This document shows, one piece after another, positions 3,160 through 60,744 of a stretch of DNA of 64,000 nucleotides. The stretch is taken from assembly GCF_000317675.1 (NCBI RefSeq), contig NC_019776.1:558001-622000 (forward strand). The letters run 5' to 3'. Source of the stretch: Cyanobacterium aponinum PCC 10605 (lineage in GTDB: Bacteria; Cyanobacteriota; Cyanobacteriia; Cyanobacteriales; Cyanobacteriaceae). The translations under genes were made by a program, and so were the position numbers. The first letter of the stretch is position 1. The number at the start of each line of letters is the position of its first letter. The notes beneath the pieces were generated by a model. The model did no database searches, was not told the DNA's origin, and saw nothing but the letters and a program-made list of their open reading frames with translations.

Positions 3160-3903
3160 ATGAATGATAATAATTTGATTACTGGTTTAATTCATTCCAC
3201 AGAGAGTTGTGGCACAGTGGATGGCCCTGGTATTCGCTTCGTTGTTTTTACCCAAGGATGCCCTCTAAGATGCTTATATTGTCACAATCCTGATTGTCGT
3301 CATATAGAAAATGGAAAAAAAATAACAGTGGGGGAGTTAATCGAGGAAATTGAGAAATATCATTCTTATTTCGATTATTCAGGGGGGGGCGTTACAGTGA
3401 CAGGAGGAGAGCCTTTAATGCAACCAGAATTTGTCAAAGCAATTTTTCAGGAGTGCCATAAAAAAGGAATTCATACGGCTTTGGATACTTCTGGATATGT
3501 GCAGTTAAATCAAGCCAAGGAAGTATTAGAATCGGCGGATTTAGTGTTGTTGGATATTAAATCTTATGATCCTGAAATTTATCGACGAGTAACAAGTGTT
3601 TCTCTGCAACCCACCCTTGATTTTGCCAATTATTTAGCGAAAATTAATAAACCAACATGGATTCGTTTTGTTTTAGTGCCTAATCTAACAGATCCTGATC
3701 ATAATGTTCAAGGGTTAGCTGAGTTTGTAGCAGGATTAAAAAATGTTGAAAAAGTTGAAGTTTTACCTTTTCATAAAATGGGTGAATATAAATGGGAACA
3801 GTTAGGATATGACTATCAACTAAAAGATACCCAAACACCCTCCCCCGAATTGATTGCTAAAGTTTCAGAAATATTTAAAAGAAATGGTTTAAATGTTCAA
3901 TAA
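3160..3903 (+). CDS. pflA: Pyruvate formate-lyase activating enzyme (radical SAM)
   Basis: A 247-residue radical SAM enzyme with the cluster motif CxxxCxxC at C34, C38 and C41 (GCPLRCLYCHNPDC), followed by the SAM-binding GGEP (VTVTGGEPL, about residues 81-89). The N-terminus has the STESCGTVDGPGIR block typical of PflA. Role: uses SAM and a [4Fe-4S] cluster to place the glycyl radical on pyruvate formate-lyase for anaerobic fermentation. No formate-lyase or other glycyl radical enzyme lies in this window, so the partner must be elsewhere. The gene is alone and sits between inverted repeats at 2804-2822 and 3974-3992. A different glycyl-radical activase is the main alternative. Confidence 0.9.
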   Translation: MNDNNLITGLIHSTESCGTVDGPGIRFVVFTQGCPLRCLYCHNPDCRHIENGKKITVGELIEEIEKYHSYFDYSGGGVTVTGGEPLMQPEFVKAIFQECHKKGIHTALDTSGYVQLNQAKEVLESADLVLLDIKSYDPEIYRRVTSVSLQPTLDFANYLAKINKPTWIRFVLVPNLTDPDHNVQGLAEFVAGLKNVEKVEVLPFHKMGEYKWEQLGYDYQLKDTQTPSPELIAKVSEIFKRNGLNVQ

Positions 3904-5032: not shown

Positions 5033-5318
5033 TTACCTCAGTTCTACAAGAGAATATAGGATTGGACTGTTGAGGAGAGAGGGAGATGGGGGGATGAGGG
5101 GATAAGGGGGATAAGGTGTCAGGTGTCAGGTTTCAGGTTGCAGGTTTTAGAAGAAAGTAATAAGTATTCGGAGTTTTTTATTCTTAATTTTTCCTTTGCC
5201 CTCCCCCCTCTCGAGGGGGGATAAAGGGGGGTTCGCCCCTTGCCCCTTGCCCCTTGCCCTTTGCCCTTTTCGCCATCATTATCATTCATAGATAAAAATT
5301 TATCTCGAACTCAGGTTA
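5033..5318 (+). repeat. Modular intergenic element (TIR family) between nadK and pstB
   Basis: About 286 bp, bounded by TTACCTCAGTTC at 5033 and CGAACTCAGGTTAG ending near 5318. Inside are GATGAGG/GATAAGG purine blocks, GTGTCAG and GTTGCAG heptamers, AATAAGTATTCGG, the palindromic module at 5197-5236, a run of TTGCCCC/TTGCCCT heptamers, and the end block CATTCATAGATAAAAATTTATC. The same module order recurs at 60493-60744. The right end begins four bases after the pstB stop codon. No coding potential is seen. Confidence 0.75.
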
Positions 5319-10299: not shown

Positions 10300-10445
10300 G
10301 GTAAAGATGAATAGTGAATAATTAATAATTAATAATTAATAATTCCGAACACTCATTACTCATTACTCGTTACTTATTACTTTCTCCAACACCTGCAACC
10401 GTCAAACCTGACACCTACCCTTGTCAGATATTCTTATGCTGAAAT
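10300..10445 (-). repeat. Period-7 array with a decayed family end
   Basis: Read in 7-bp steps the array goes GTGAATA, ATTAATA (x3), ATTCCGA, ACACTCA, TTACTCA, TTACTCG, TTACTTA, then CTCCAAC, ACCTGCA, ACCGTCA, AACCTGA, CACCTAC. It ends in TCAGATATTCTTATGCTGAAA, a decayed minus-strand copy of the CTCAGTTCGGTTTAAGAATA end. The register is kept for more than 100 bp. Confidence 0.7.
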
Positions 10446-10516
10446 GGGGTTAAATATCGCTTTAGAAAAGAGTTAGAGGGTCAAAAATATATTTAGATTC
10501 AGTCAATTACAACAAG

Positions 10517-18449: not shown

Positions 18450-19027
18450 TTAATCTCAGTTCAGTTTAAGAATATCCGATAAGGTTAGGTGTTAGGTGTC
18501 AGGTTGCAGGTTGCAGGTTGCAGGTGTTAGGGTGATGAGGAGATGAGGGGAGAGGGTGAGAGCATTAGTTAGAGGTTAAAGTTGCGTGCAATTTGTCAAG
18601 TATATAGTTACAATTATTAATTATAAGCTCAATTCTTTGCTAACTCTGTCTCTTAAGACTTTTCTCTGTTGACTTGGGTGAGATGGGTCTATTTTTGGGT
18701 TTCGATCGCACTTTTTCATAAATCATAAGAATAACAAATTCTGAGTATTTAGTCTAAGGTGGTCAAATCCGCTAAGTTATGGATAATAAAGGATTAGAGC
18801 GATTGTTAGTTTTTATAAACAAATCATTGACAAAAATCACTTTTGCTTAACTTCTTACCAATGGGGTGAGAGGGGGAAGTAGGGGCTTAGGATTTTTGGG
18901 TTGTAGGGGTTGAATATATTTAACGTCAGTTCGGGTTAAGGCAATTTTATCGTTATTTTTAAGAAGAGGCTATAAGATTTTCTGACTACGAGAAAATAAT
19001 GCTTTCAGCGTATCCAAAACTCAGGTT
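18450..19027 (+). repeat. Modular element, long copy (TIR family, R3 end)
   Basis: TTAATCTCAGTTCAG starts directly after the stop codon at 18449, followed by TTTAAGAATATCCGATAAGG and tandem GTTGCAG heptamers. About 330 bp of DNA not seen in the other copies comes next. The element closes with the conserved 107-bp block (18921-19027) that ends in ATCCAAAACTCAGGTT. That block differs from the copy at 43651-43757 at six positions by my alignment. No gene is visible in the gap up to mnmE. Confidence 0.75.
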
Positions 19028-20503: not shown

Positions 20504-20574
20504 TCCAAAACCTGAAACCTGAAACCTGAAACCTGACACCTCTCCTTATTTGATATTCTTATGCTAAACTGAGA
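20504..20574 (-). repeat. Modular element end between accA and mnmE
   Basis: Four CCTGAAA-type heptamers lead to CTTATTTGATATTCTTATGC and TAAACTGAGA, a minus-strand version of the CTCAGTTCGGTTTAAGAATA end. The outer tip lies one base past the accA stop codon. The array overlaps the region just 5' of mnmE. Confidence 0.75.
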
Positions 20575-27348: not shown

Positions 27349-27562
27349 AAACCTCAGTTCGGTTTAAGAATATCCGATAAGGTTAGGTGTCAGGTGTCAG
27401 GTTGCAGGTGGTAGGGGTTTTTAGCAAGGGGCTTAAGCCCCTTGTTTAAGTCAGTTCAGATTAAGGCAATTTTATCGTTATTTCTAAGTTATTTCTAAGA
27501 AGCTATAAGGTTTTCTGACTAGGAGAAAATAATGCTTTCAGCTTATCCAAAACTCAGGTTAA
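27349..27562 (+). repeat. Modular element, compact copy (TIR family, R3 end)
   Basis: About 214 bp: AACCTCAGTTCGG, TTTAAGAATATCCGATAAGG, two GTGTCAG heptamers, a perfect 20-bp palindrome CAAGGGGCTTAAGCCCCTTG (27425-27444), then the conserved block 27448-27560 ending ATCCAAAACTCAGGTT. The block has a short internal duplication (AAGTTATTTCT). This is the clearest short member, with both ends visible. Confidence 0.85.
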
Positions 27563-35225: not shown

Positions 35226-35386
35226 AGCAAAGTTAAAAGGGCAAAGGGCAAGGGGCAAAGGGCAAAGGTAAATAGTTGATGATAATTAAGTTGATGATAA
35301 TTAATAACTTCTAACTCCGAACTCATTCCCCTAATATCTGAAACCTGAAACCTATCCTTATCCGATATTCTTAAACCGACTTGAGA
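35226..35386 (-). repeat. Modular element, inverted, next to argC stop
   Basis: GGCAAAG/GGCAAGG heptamers, GTTGATGATAATTAA units, CTTCTAACTCCGAACTC, then AACCTGA heptamers and TCCGATATTCTTAAACCGAC with a TTGAG tip. On the minus strand this tip begins a few bases after the argC stop codon (35391-35393). The opposite end is not recognisable. Confidence 0.65.
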
Positions 35387-37994: not shown

Positions 37995-38165
37995 AATAGA
38001 TTATCAAAGGGCAAACCCCCTTTTATCACCCCTCTCGAGAGGGGAGGGCAAAGGTGAATAGTTGATAATTAAAAATTAAGAATTAAGAATTAAAAACTCT
38101 GAACACTCATTACTTTCTTCTAAAACCTGAAACCTGAAACCTGACACCCGATAACTCCGAACTCC
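37995..38165 (-). repeat. Period-7 array between cobA and hemD
   Basis: The palindromic module CCCCTCTCGAGAGGGG (38011-38050) is followed by GGCAAAG, GTGAATA, GTTGATA, ATTAAAA, ATTAAGA (x2), ATTAAAA, ACTCTGA, ACACTCA, TTACTTT, CTTCTAA, AACCTGA (x3), CACCCGA, all in one 7-bp register. No family end of either type is recognised. Confidence 0.7.
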
Positions 38166-42376: not shown

Positions 42377-43450
42377 ATGAAAACTAATACATTATCAGTT
42401 AATCGCATTTTAAATCCTACAGGATGGTTACTTTTAATCTTGCTAACCTTAATTCTCTCTACACTTTCTTTTGTATCCTTAGATAAAAATCAAACTCTGC
42501 CTCTGTGGATAGCGACGCTCATTAGCGGTATCTTAGGTTATATCGTTGTTCCCATACTACAGAAAATTAAAGCCTCTCAAATTATTCAAGAAGACGGCCC
42601 TCAAAGTCACCTCAAAAAAGCTGGAACTCCTACAATGGGGGGAATTTTTTTCATTCCCACTGGCTTAATTATTGCTCTAATCATGGCAAATTTCAGTCCT
42701 AATGTCATTGCCTTAGTATTACTAACTTTTGCCTATAGCTTTATAGGTTGGGTTGATGATTGGCAAATTTTGCGTAAAAAAACAAATTTAGGCTTAACTC
42801 CTAAACAAAAATTAATTTTACAAGTGGGTTTTGCCATTATTTTTTGTGTCTGGATGTTTTTCACTCAACCGGCATCTATCACAAATGTTACTCTACCATT
42901 CAACATCATTTTGCCTCTAAGTTTTCTTTTTTGGTTTGTTGCTGTTTTTGTCATGGTAGCCGAGAGTAATGCTACTAATTTAACGGATGGTGTTGATGGA
43001 TTAGCAGGAGGCACAGGTGCGATCGCATTTTTAGGTTTAGGAATATTAATAGCTAACTCCCATCCTGATTTACTGATTTTTTGTTTAGCCATTAGTGGTA
43101 GTTGTTTAGGATTTGTGTTACACAACCGCAATAAAGCCTCTGTATTTATGGGTGATACTGGCTCACTGGCTTTAGGGGCAGGATTAGCCGGAGTGGGTAT
43201 TTTAAGCGAAAACCTATGGGCTTTATTTATTATCAGTTTGTTATTTTTTATTGAATCTTTATCTGTTATTGCACAGGTAACATATTATAAAGCAACAAAA
43301 GACTCAGAAGGAAAAGGAAAAAGATTATTTAAAATGGCGCCTATTCATCATCACTTAGAATTAAGCGGCTGGAGTGAAACACAAATAGTGGGTATTTTTT
43401 ATATCATTAATACAATTTTAGTCTTGATGGTAGTCTCAATTAGTAATTAA
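42377..43450 (+). CDS. mraY: Phospho-N-acetylmuramoyl-pentapeptide transferase
   Basis: 357 residues with about ten membrane helices. Transfers phospho-MurNAc-pentapeptide to undecaprenyl phosphate to make lipid I for peptidoglycan. Motifs: GTPTMGGIFFIP, VDDWQILRKKTNLGL, ATNLTDGVDGLAGG, FMGDTGSLALG and MAPIHHHLELSGW. No other cell-wall gene adjoins. The TTAA of a modular repeat overlaps its stop codon. Confidence 0.97.
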   Translation: MKTNTLSVNRILNPTGWLLLILLTLILSTLSFVSLDKNQTLPLWIATLISGILGYIVVPILQKIKASQIIQEDGPQSHLKKAGTPTMGGIFFIPTGLIIALIMANFSPNVIALVLLTFAYSFIGWVDDWQILRKKTNLGLTPKQKLILQVGFAIIFCVWMFFTQPASITNVTLPFNIILPLSFLFWFVAVFVMVAESNATNLTDGVDGLAGGTGAIAFLGLGILIANSHPDLLIFCLAISGSCLGFVLHNRNKASVFMGDTGSLALGAGLAGVGILSENLWALFIISLLFFIESLSVIAQVTYYKATKDSEGKGKRLFKMAPIHHHLELSGWSETQIVGIFYIINTILVLMVVSISN

Positions 43451-43759
43451 CCTCAGTTCGGTTTAAGAATATTGGATGAGGGTAGGTGTCAGGTGTCAGG
43501 TTGCGGGTGTCAGGTTGCAGGTGTTAGGGGATGGAGGGATGAGGTGATGAGGGGAAAGGGGGAAACAAGTAATAAATAATAAATAAGTAGTAAGTATTCG
43601 TGGTTTTTAATTCTTAATTCTTAATTTTTAATTCTTAATTCTTAACTATTTAACGTCAATTCGGGTTAAGGCAATTTTATCGTTATTTCTAAGAAGAAGC
43701 TATAAGGTTTTCTGACTAGGAGAAAATAATGCTTTCAGCTTATCCAAAACTCAGGTTAA
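43447..43759 (+). repeat. Modular element overlapping the mraY stop (TIR family, R3 end)
   Basis: TTAACCTCAGTTCGG starts at 43447, sharing TAA with the mraY stop. Then TTTAAGAATATTGGATGAGG, GTGTCAG and GTTGCAG heptamers, GATGAGG units, AATAAGTAGTAAGTATTCG, six TTCTTAA-type heptamers and the conserved 107-bp block 43651-43757, ending ATCCAAAACTCAGGTTAA. Both ends share TTAACCTSAGTT as an inverted repeat. Confidence 0.87.
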
Positions 43760-46615: not shown

Positions 46616-47191
46616 ATGTCAGACAATCCTAGTTTATTTTTGCCAGAATCTCAATTGTTAATTCTTAATATAGTTTGTGCTTTAGCATGGGCTGATAATG
46701 AATTGAGTGAAGAAGAAACGGAAATACTATTAGAAAAATTTAAGTCGAATCTTCCTCCTGAACCAGAACCGATTTACTTTGATGATCCTGACCCTTTTTA
46801 TAATACTATGGGGTTATCTTCATTTACTGTTGCTGAACAAACTCAAGCCAGAGTTAATGCAGAAATTGCTTTTAAAGACATTTTAAATCGCTATAAACAA
46901 AATCCAATACCCCTTTCTGATTTAGTATCCCAACTAAAAACTAATGAAGACCGTTGTTTATGTGCAAAATTAGCTTATGTGGTGATTAAAGCTAGTCCTG
47001 ACAATCAAGGTAATTTGATTTGTGCTGATGAAAAAATGGTATATCGTCAACTGATTCAATTGTTAAATCTTGATCCTGAAGTCGTGCAAAAGATAGAACA
47101 AAGGGCAGATTATGAGTTAGATAAATTTCAACATCCTTTTAAAGCCTTTATGGGAAATGTGAAAAAGTTTTTTCTGAAAAAAATTATTTAA
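46616..47191 (+). CDS. TerB-like (tellurite resistance B) family protein
   Basis: 191 residues from ATG 46616, which has AAGGA about 10 bp upstream; an earlier ATG at 46595 has no visible ribosome site. NIVCALAWADNELSEEETEILLEKF is the TerB opening, with acidic residues on the first helices; a second similar segment follows (CAKLAYVVIKASPDNQGNLICADEKMVY). A Pro-rich insertion (PPEPEPIYFDDPDPF) separates them. TerB-like domains are membrane-associated stress proteins of unclear chemistry. A repeat end shares bases with the stop codon. Confidence 0.75.
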   Translation: MSDNPSLFLPESQLLILNIVCALAWADNELSEEETEILLEKFKSNLPPEPEPIYFDDPDPFYNTMGLSSFTVAEQTQARVNAEIAFKDILNRYKQNPIPLSDLVSQLKTNEDRCLCAKLAYVVIKASPDNQGNLICADEKMVYRQLIQLLNLDPEVVQKIEQRADYELDKFQHPFKAFMGNVKKFFLKKII

Positions 47192-47450
47192 CCTGAGTTC
47201 GGGATAAATTTTCATCGATGAGTGATGGCGAAAAGGGCAATTTAATGAATATTGAATAGTGAATAGTTGATAATTACTCGTTACTCATTACTTTCTTCTA
47301 AAACCTGAAACCTGAAACCTGAAACCCGACACCTTATCTCCCTCTCCCCTCATCCCCTCATCCCCCTAACACTTGCAACCTGCAACCTGAAACTTGACAC
47401 CTCCGAACTCAAACACATCAATACCCTAACACCTAACCTTTCTGAGGAGA
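47188..47450 (-). repeat. Modular element overlapping the TerB-like gene stop
   Basis: TTAACCTGAGTTCGGGATAA begins at 47188, sharing TAA with the stop at 47189-47191; the end block ATTTTCATCGATGAGTGATGG follows. Then GTGAATA/GTTGATA, TTACTCG/TTACTCA, CTTCTAA, four AACCTGA, CCCTCATCCCCTCATCC, and CTTGCAA/CCTGCAA heptamers up to CACCTAACCTTTCTGAGG. The opposite end is decayed. Confidence 0.75.
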
Positions 47451-50339: not shown

Positions 50340-50617
50340 CAGATTTGGAGAAGTTTCAGATTGACGAAGGTAATAAGTAATGAGAAAAGGGAGAGGTGAT
50401 AGGGGAAAACAAGTAACGAGCATGAGAGTTAGGAGTTTTTAATTCTTAATTTTTAATTTTTAATTATCAACTATTCACTATTCACTAATTACCCTTACCC
50501 CTTTACATCTTGCCTTAACCCTCTCCCCTCATCTCCTCATCACCCTAACACCTGCAACCTGCAACCTGACACCTGACACCTAACCTTATCAGATATTCTT
50601 AAACCGAACTGAGGTTA
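50340..50617 (-). repeat. Modular element, inverted, downstream of the inositol monophosphatase gene
   Basis: AGTAATA/AGTAATG, GATAGGG units, TTCTTAA/TTTTTAA/TTATCAA/CTATTCA heptamers, CCCTCATCTCCTCATC, CCTGCAA and CCTGACA heptamers, then TTATCAGATATTCTTAAACC and GAACTGAGGTTA. On the minus strand its tip lies 25 bp after the stop at 50643. The opposite end is not clear. The gap 50182-50340 shows nothing else. Confidence 0.75.
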
Positions 50618-60492: not shown

Positions 60493-60744
60493 TAACCTCA
60501 GTTCGGTTTAAGAATATTGGATAAGGGTAGGTGTCAGGTTTCAGGTTGCAGGTTGCAGGTGTTGAGAGAAAGTAATGAGTAACAAATAATGAGTGTTCGG
60601 GGTTTTTAATTCCTAATTCTTAATTTTTCCTTTGCCCTCCCCCCTCTTGAGGGGGGATAAAGGGGGGTTCGCCTCTTGCCTCTTACCTTTTGCCTTTTTT
60701 TCTCCATCATTCATAGATGAAAATTTATCCCGAACTCAGGTTAA
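60493..60744 (+). repeat. Modular element, full copy (TIR family, R1 end)
   Basis: About 252 bp: TAACCTCAGTTCGG, TTTAAGAATATTGGATAAGG, GTGTCAG/GTTTCAG/GTTGCAG heptamers, AGTAATGAGTAACAAATAATG, AGTGTTCGG, TTCCTAATTCTTAATTTTTC, the palindromic module 60632-60672, TTGCCTC/TTACCTT heptamers, CATTCATAGATGAAAATTTATC, CGAACTCAGGTTAAC. The ends form an imperfect inverted repeat (TAACCTSAGTTCGG). Module order equals that at 5033-5318. Confidence 0.88.

Follow-up and report, generated by a model that had tools for sequence, protein, structure and literature searches.

Heptanucleotide arrays in the Cyanobacterium aponinum PCC 10605 genome as the probable interior of a MITE-like, IS982-related element family

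Introduction

To our knowledge, cyanobacteria have been known for decades to contain tandem heptamers, on whose cause there is no agreement. The small dispersed repeats (SDRs) of Nostoc punctiforme, reportedly described by Elhai et al. in 2008 (cited in PMC3116915), are mobile and frequently lie within tandem heptamers or minitransposons; they are said to be 21-27 nt in length, to have a conserved hairpin, and to lack the inverted ends of an IS. Cyanobacterial tandem heptamers, including TAACTGA repeats and mixed heptamers, were analyzed by MacGregor (2015; PMC4679880), who found that related Cyanothece strains differ by indels in steps of 7 nt and left open whether an ancestor or a mobile element was the source of the repeats. 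The BrickBuilt MITE of Porphyromonas gingivalis is an intergenic inverted-repeat element with a 23-bp tandem unit in 19 copies (PMC4596501). The passages of PMC3542288 on the MITEs of Anabaena sp. 90 list 147 of them, 77-541 bp in length and mostly intergenic, and class them as type II, with no IS carrying their ends.

The window considered here is a whole stretch of 64,000 nucleotides (bases 558001-622000) of the 4.18-Mb, 35% GC genome of C. aponinum PCC 10605 (G000). The genome was also sampled as stretches totalling 1.26 Mb, in which loci have L numbers (e.g., L048:8928). A sister species of the same genus (G041) served for comparison; the orthologous alignment covers 207 kb, and the identity at the compared loci is about 90-95%.

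Results

The intergenic DNA of the window exhibits a distinct period of seven. Its identity at lag 7 is 0.349, whereas dinucleotide shuffles give 0.287 (z=15.5), and the signal is repeated at lag 14 (z=10.3) and lag 21 (z=8.0); there is no lag-7 peak in the coding DNA of the window. This autocorrelation had been proposed in the initial annotation of the window, and its result agrees with the period described there. In the sampled 1.26 Mb, 356 exact period-7 runs with at least 10 matched positions were counted, compared with 3-26 for each of periods 2-6 and 8-12, which makes period 7 more than tenfold commoner than any other short period. As in short tandemly repeated repetitive sequences (STRRs), the tandem 7-bp units are located in intergenic DNA. 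The arrays at 10300-10400 and 38047-38145 indeed run in 7-bp steps across unlike units, as had been claimed for them, and the similar order of units reported at other loci was also found: among neighbouring unlike arrays at most 120 bp apart in the 1.26 Mb, each unit pair has one order and strand, and a second arrangement never reaches four cases.

When 172 loci containing AACCTG were oriented, a common frame was revealed, beginning on the left with AACCTGAGTTCGGGATAAATTTTCATC... or AACCTGAGTTTTGGATAAGCTGAAAGC... and finishing on the right with ...CTTATCCGATATTCTTAAACCGAACTGAGGTT. The edges of the frame are inverted ends, with AACCTSAGTTCGG at both termini. In total, 126 left and 150 right terminal inverted repeats were found (19 and 8, respectively, in shuffled DNA). 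When ends in the 1.26 Mb were paired, a strict motif yielded 62 units and a wider motif 108; nearly all are 57-442 bp in length, mostly 100-280 bp. Elements with heptamer arrays measure about 200-330 bp, and a short form without arrays about 102 bp; most of the paired units are either of this short form or array-bearing ones of 190-280 bp. Like a type I MITE, the element is short, non-coding, and present in many copies. The ACCTG arrays occupy a near-constant position inside the right terminus.

Target duplications of 4-7 bp, mostly 4-5 bp, flank 45 of the 108 copies, versus 4.0% expected from controls with swapped flanks, in which the left and right flanks were taken from different copies (binomial p about 4e-34). 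Five of the 45 are not independent, being in one larger repeated context, and the excess persists without them. The copies at L012:19100, L022:6004, L027:7780, L048:19556, and L057:502 have identical flanks aaactaacaaat / aacaaatagtaa; therefore, in these five cases the element is nested within a larger repeated segment.

A recognised end is at most 250 bp away from 212 of the 427 period-7 arrays, and positions this close to an end make up 7.2% of the genome. For about half of the arrays no end was recognised in the vicinity; many of these have interior words in common with the family or are members of a second dispersed family. In the window, where the end models (HMMs) were trained on DNA outside it, 26 of 35 arrays are at most 300 bp from an end, as are 38% of intergenic positions, and regions with arrays contain ends more often (p=0.009). 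A recognisable end is present at every locus named in the initial annotation except 38045. The features are collected in Table 1.

Table 1. Copies of the element family in the window, and sites occupied in C. aponinum PCC 10605 that are empty in the sister species (E values are those of HMM matches)
Coordinates	Strand	Feature	Remarks
10300..10451	+	Focal copy; heptamer interior 10308-10418	Decayed right terminus GATATTCTTATGCTGAAATGGGGTT ending 10451, matched at 10410-10437 (E=3.7e-4); no recognisable left end, no duplication
38003..38160	+	Second named array; family interior, in register over ~14 units	No recognisable ends; the 1.26 Mb contains 93 similar stretches; array present in sister-species ortholog with other units and unit numbers
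20508..20573	+	AAACCTG array and right terminus	Right end 20535-20573 (E=0.0013)
35236..35379	+	GGGCAAA / AATAGTTGAT / CCTGAAA arrays and right terminus	Right end E=2.4e-7; unit make-up differs in sister-species ortholog
43449..43757	-	Full composite element: right terminus 43449-43490, heptamer interior, type-B left end 43656-43757	E=3.2e-12 and 4.1e-29; type-B left end is a 102-bp module
47190..47393	+	Type-A left end 47190-47234 and heptamer interior	E=2.3e-16
50436..50616	+	Heptamer interior and right terminus 50575-50616	E=5.7e-14; first half of interior inverted
60494..60742	-	Complete 249-bp element	Both inverted ends; 6-bp target duplication AACACT
27350..27560	-	Complete 211-bp element	Type-B left end; target duplication AACAA
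5080..5317	-	Type-A left end 5267-5317 and AAGGGGC / ACACCTG arrays	E=7.4e-12
18452..19027	-	Right terminus with ACCTG arrays 18452-18531 and 102-bp type-B unit 18926-19027	E=5.4e-11 and 1.2e-27
L048:1133-1340		Empty site in sister species, single target AATT	ACCTG array in G000 copy
L062:18489-18739		Empty site in sister species, single target AAGAT	Multi-block array in G000 copy
L028:2869-3077		Empty site in sister species, single target AAAT	ACCTG array in G000 copy
L048:8928-9132		Empty site in sister species, single target ATTT	Multi-block array in G000 copy

Heptamers are likewise present in the second dispersed family, whose ends resemble GGCTCTATTACTTCTCGTCGTGTAAATTATTGGTTAG (L019:17603-17792). 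Its ends were found 25 times in the 1.26 Mb, an attempt to pair them gave no pairs, and one copy is missing from the sister species. Two end-like sequences 1191 bp apart (window:2803-3993) flank an ORF at 3160-3903; this may be due to chance or may represent a gene-bearing element. A search of a named genome collection, which may omit records near this genome, with the exact 25-bp right end gave 0 matches.

Among 196 genomes of the order, the 13-bp end occurs 242 times in C. aponinum PCC 10605, 84 times in G185, 59 times in the sister species, 47 in G077, 44 in G160, and 36 in G072, and in other genomes too; a reversed control gave 0 in C. aponinum PCC 10605 and essentially none across the 196. 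Elements of 964-970 bp with the mini-element ends, 4-5 bp duplications, and one ORF of about 315 aa were found in G102, G119, and G013. The transposase frame is open in the first two and interrupted by stops in G013. The G102 ORF belongs to the IS982 family (NF033520, E=1.3e-77, 261 bits at a cut-off of 130; Pfam DDE_Tnp_1_3). Full-length copies of the IS982 transposase are present in the sister species (11 copies) and in G173 (several); the IS ends in both are AACCTCAGTTTTGGATAAG, which is near the type-B end of the mini-element, and the duplications are 4 bp. As in type I MITEs, the ends are thus common to an autonomous IS, namely the IS982 copies of other genomes. In C. aponinum PCC 10605, only fragments of the IS982 transposase and no intact copy were found, so that any present-day mobility is putative. 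This genome retains an internally deleted IS relic of 352 bp; internal deletion of an IS is a classic route to a MITE. It can be noted that its end sequences are four times as numerous as those of the sister species, although the full-length transposase is in the latter.

The arrays might also be functional subterminal sites that bind the transposase or a partner, selection holding the 7-bp spacing, a reading that would add to the mini-transposon reading and not replace it. It is suggested by the unit AACCTGA, which coincides with bases 1-7 of the inverted end AACCTGAGTTCGG, by the near-constant placement of the ACCTG arrays inside the right terminus, and by related genomes in which arrays are inverted on both sides of an element. 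However, the same ACCTGNN arrays occur on elements with different ends, the 102-bp units have ends without arrays, and the blocks AATAGTG and AAGAATT are unlike the ends; we consider such a role unlikely.

Four clean junctions were found in the 207 kb aligned with the sister species, each with the unit in C. aponinum PCC 10605 and a bare site with a single target in G041 (Table 1). The focal array shares 57 consecutive identical bases with the element at L048:8928-9132, one of these four. Therefore, ordered blocks in register arrive together, ready-made. In-place slippage alone is ruled out by the empty sites. The focal array itself is missing at the orthologous site of the sister species, where its decayed ends are consistent with loss as well as with gain.

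Unit number changes after arrival. Among 253 close copy pairs, the commonest gap is 7 bp, found in 124 pair events and representing 18 distinct inserts; there are eight distinct inserts of 14 bp, five of 6 bp, ten of 8 bp, five of 13 bp, and none of 15 bp (p about 5e-6). This excess of 7- and 14-bp gaps between recent copies is as slippage predicts. The comparison of unit number between strains, another proposal of the initial annotation, bore fruit in part: whole orthologous alignments with the sister species contain a slight excess of 7/14 gaps, which is weak, alignment through divergent intergenic DNA being ambiguous. As in STRRs, copy number thus changes in 7-bp steps, visibly between close copies and weakly in orthologous alignments. 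Copies do come to differ in unit number through a local process working in 7-bp steps, either slippage or unequal exchange. The elements are also mosaic, since modules that are not heptameric (24, 59-65, and about 100 bp) are gained and lost between copies. Palindromic modules AACCCCCCTTTATCCCCCCTCGAGAGGGGGG and GGGGCGAATGGCCATTCGCCCC, gained or lost as blocks, are located inside some copies (e.g., window:5080-5317 and 60494-60742).

Ordinary STRRs would be arrays grown in place by slipped-strand mispairing, their unlike units produced by mutation and re-expansion; the register would then be a local by-product, and the recurrence of units compositional. The enrichment of 7/14 gaps between copies, the gradual unit transitions, and the heptamer arrays of element-free genomes are consistent with such growth. 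In contrast, it does not account for unlike units that keep order and strand across loci, for whole arrays absent at undisturbed sites of the sister species, with a target duplication in C. aponinum PCC 10605, or for a 57-bp stretch identical at unrelated loci. As the sole explanation, in-place growth is already contradicted, and we regard this alternative as quite unlikely; it remains valid for the change in unit number.

The register of unlike blocks was analyzed in the same neighbouring pairs (at most 120 bp apart, 1.26 Mb). The commonest phase of the distance modulo 7 accounts for 129 of 181 cases (62 on average and at most 72 at random) and, for gaps of at least 21 bp, for 46 of 86 (30 on average and at most 38 at random). 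Phase locking of adjacent blocks is nearly complete (11/11, 12/12, 9/10), and distant blocks are loosely locked: from AATAGTG at the head to AAACCTG at the tail, five phases occur (0, 0, 1, 7, 5, 3, and 2 cases). The focal array at 10315 departs from the register by 1 bp where ACCTGCAACCGTC gives way to AACCTGACACC; the break sits in AACCGTCAAACCTG, and this variant recurs at L048:1133 and L033:11317. The 7-bp register is real and locally strong, and it is not absolute over 100 bp. A register kept for more than 100 bp, as described initially, therefore holds locally and gives way at the 1-bp break and in the several phases of distant blocks. Since phases vary between loci and the variant with the 1-bp break recurs at other loci, the register is inherited, not enforced.

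A mechanism enforcing a global 7-bp register, which had also been suggested, is not supported and is rejected on account of the phase variation from locus to locus and the 1-bp break in the focal array. Dedicated copying in 7-bp steps by a polymerase, reverse transcriptase, or protein footprint, imposing the register on any intergenic DNA, is extremely improbable: the confinement of the enrichment to period 7 and its multiples and the lag-7 identity that persists between arrays (0.37, against 0.25-0.33 at adjacent lags) agree with it, but the same blocks are spaced in several phases, 1-bp breaks are inherited, many inserts are not multiples of 7 (modules of 24, 59, and 65 bp), and the observed conservation of order and strand is not predicted.

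Discussion

The heptamer arrays are very probably the non-coding interior of a MITE-like family (type I, IS982-related). In the scenario that we propose, the ancestral heptamer blocks would have derived from a cyanobacterial STRR-type array, and a few ancestral elements, with several heptamer blocks already in one register in their interior, would have given rise to all copies. Order, strand, and phase would recur wherever copies land because the ancestral interior was already in register. An IS982-family transposase probably recognised the ends AACCTSAGTTCGG...CCGAACTSAGGTT and moved the element as a unit, insertion leaving target duplications, mostly of 4-5 bp and up to 7. After landing, unit number would shift in 7-bp steps, possibly by slippage or by unequal exchange, while mutations and module swaps would slowly disrupt the register and erase the ends, producing loci like that at 10315. 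The interpretation first given to this DNA is thus partly supported as a whole: its common ancestor is retained in an unforeseen form, the loci being copies of one dispersed element family, and decay in place is not.

Arrays of ACCTGNN abound in genomes without these ends (327 arrays and 0 ends in G058), situated in elements that have different ends (G147, G100) or outside any visible element (G058, G192). Heptamers of this type, therefore, do not need the element. The family may have captured heptamers, or several element families may have seeded them. Elements at L067, L072, L076, and L077 in the related genomes G147, G100, and G185 have inverted arrays, with (AGGTNNC)n at the left side and (ACCTGNN)n at the right, and some of these elements have a different end, GTAACNTCAGTT. 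It is a doubtful idea that the subterminal AACCTGA units putatively serve the element, for example as iterons binding the transposase, and that cyanobacterial heptamers at large were born from such mini-transposons, were spread by them, and then outlived them.

With the IS982-related family, a carrier for heptamers is now identified by its ends, target duplications, empty sites, and an IS family with the same ends, which makes the question testable in culturable strains. Repeat order and register in such genomes should not be taken as regulation or as a copying mechanism.

Several known systems resemble this family in part. The SDRs differ in that heptamers here are inside the mini-transposon, and lengths of 100-330 bp do not fit them. 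Unlike the family described here, the Anabaena sp. 90 MITEs are presented with no mention of heptamer cargo in the passages of PMC3542288 that describe them. BrickBuilt (PMC4596501), with its tandem array within a small inverted-repeat element, is a precedent for arrays inside a MITE; however, its 23-bp tandem unit with leader and tail was not found here, where the 7-bp units come in several kinds, and the present family combines several unlike blocks, set in one register, with IS982 ends, its end sequences numbering hundreds per genome. The arrays are like STRRs and the heptamers of MacGregor (PMC4679880) in their 7-bp units, intergenic position, mixed composition, and 7-step indels. They differ in that most recurrences here are interiors of end-bounded elements with target duplications and empty sites. 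The inverted ends and 4-5 bp duplications match the IS982-family copies of G102, G119, G013, G041, and G173; unlike these IS, the mini-element has no transposase gene, and its interior consists of heptamer blocks and other modules.
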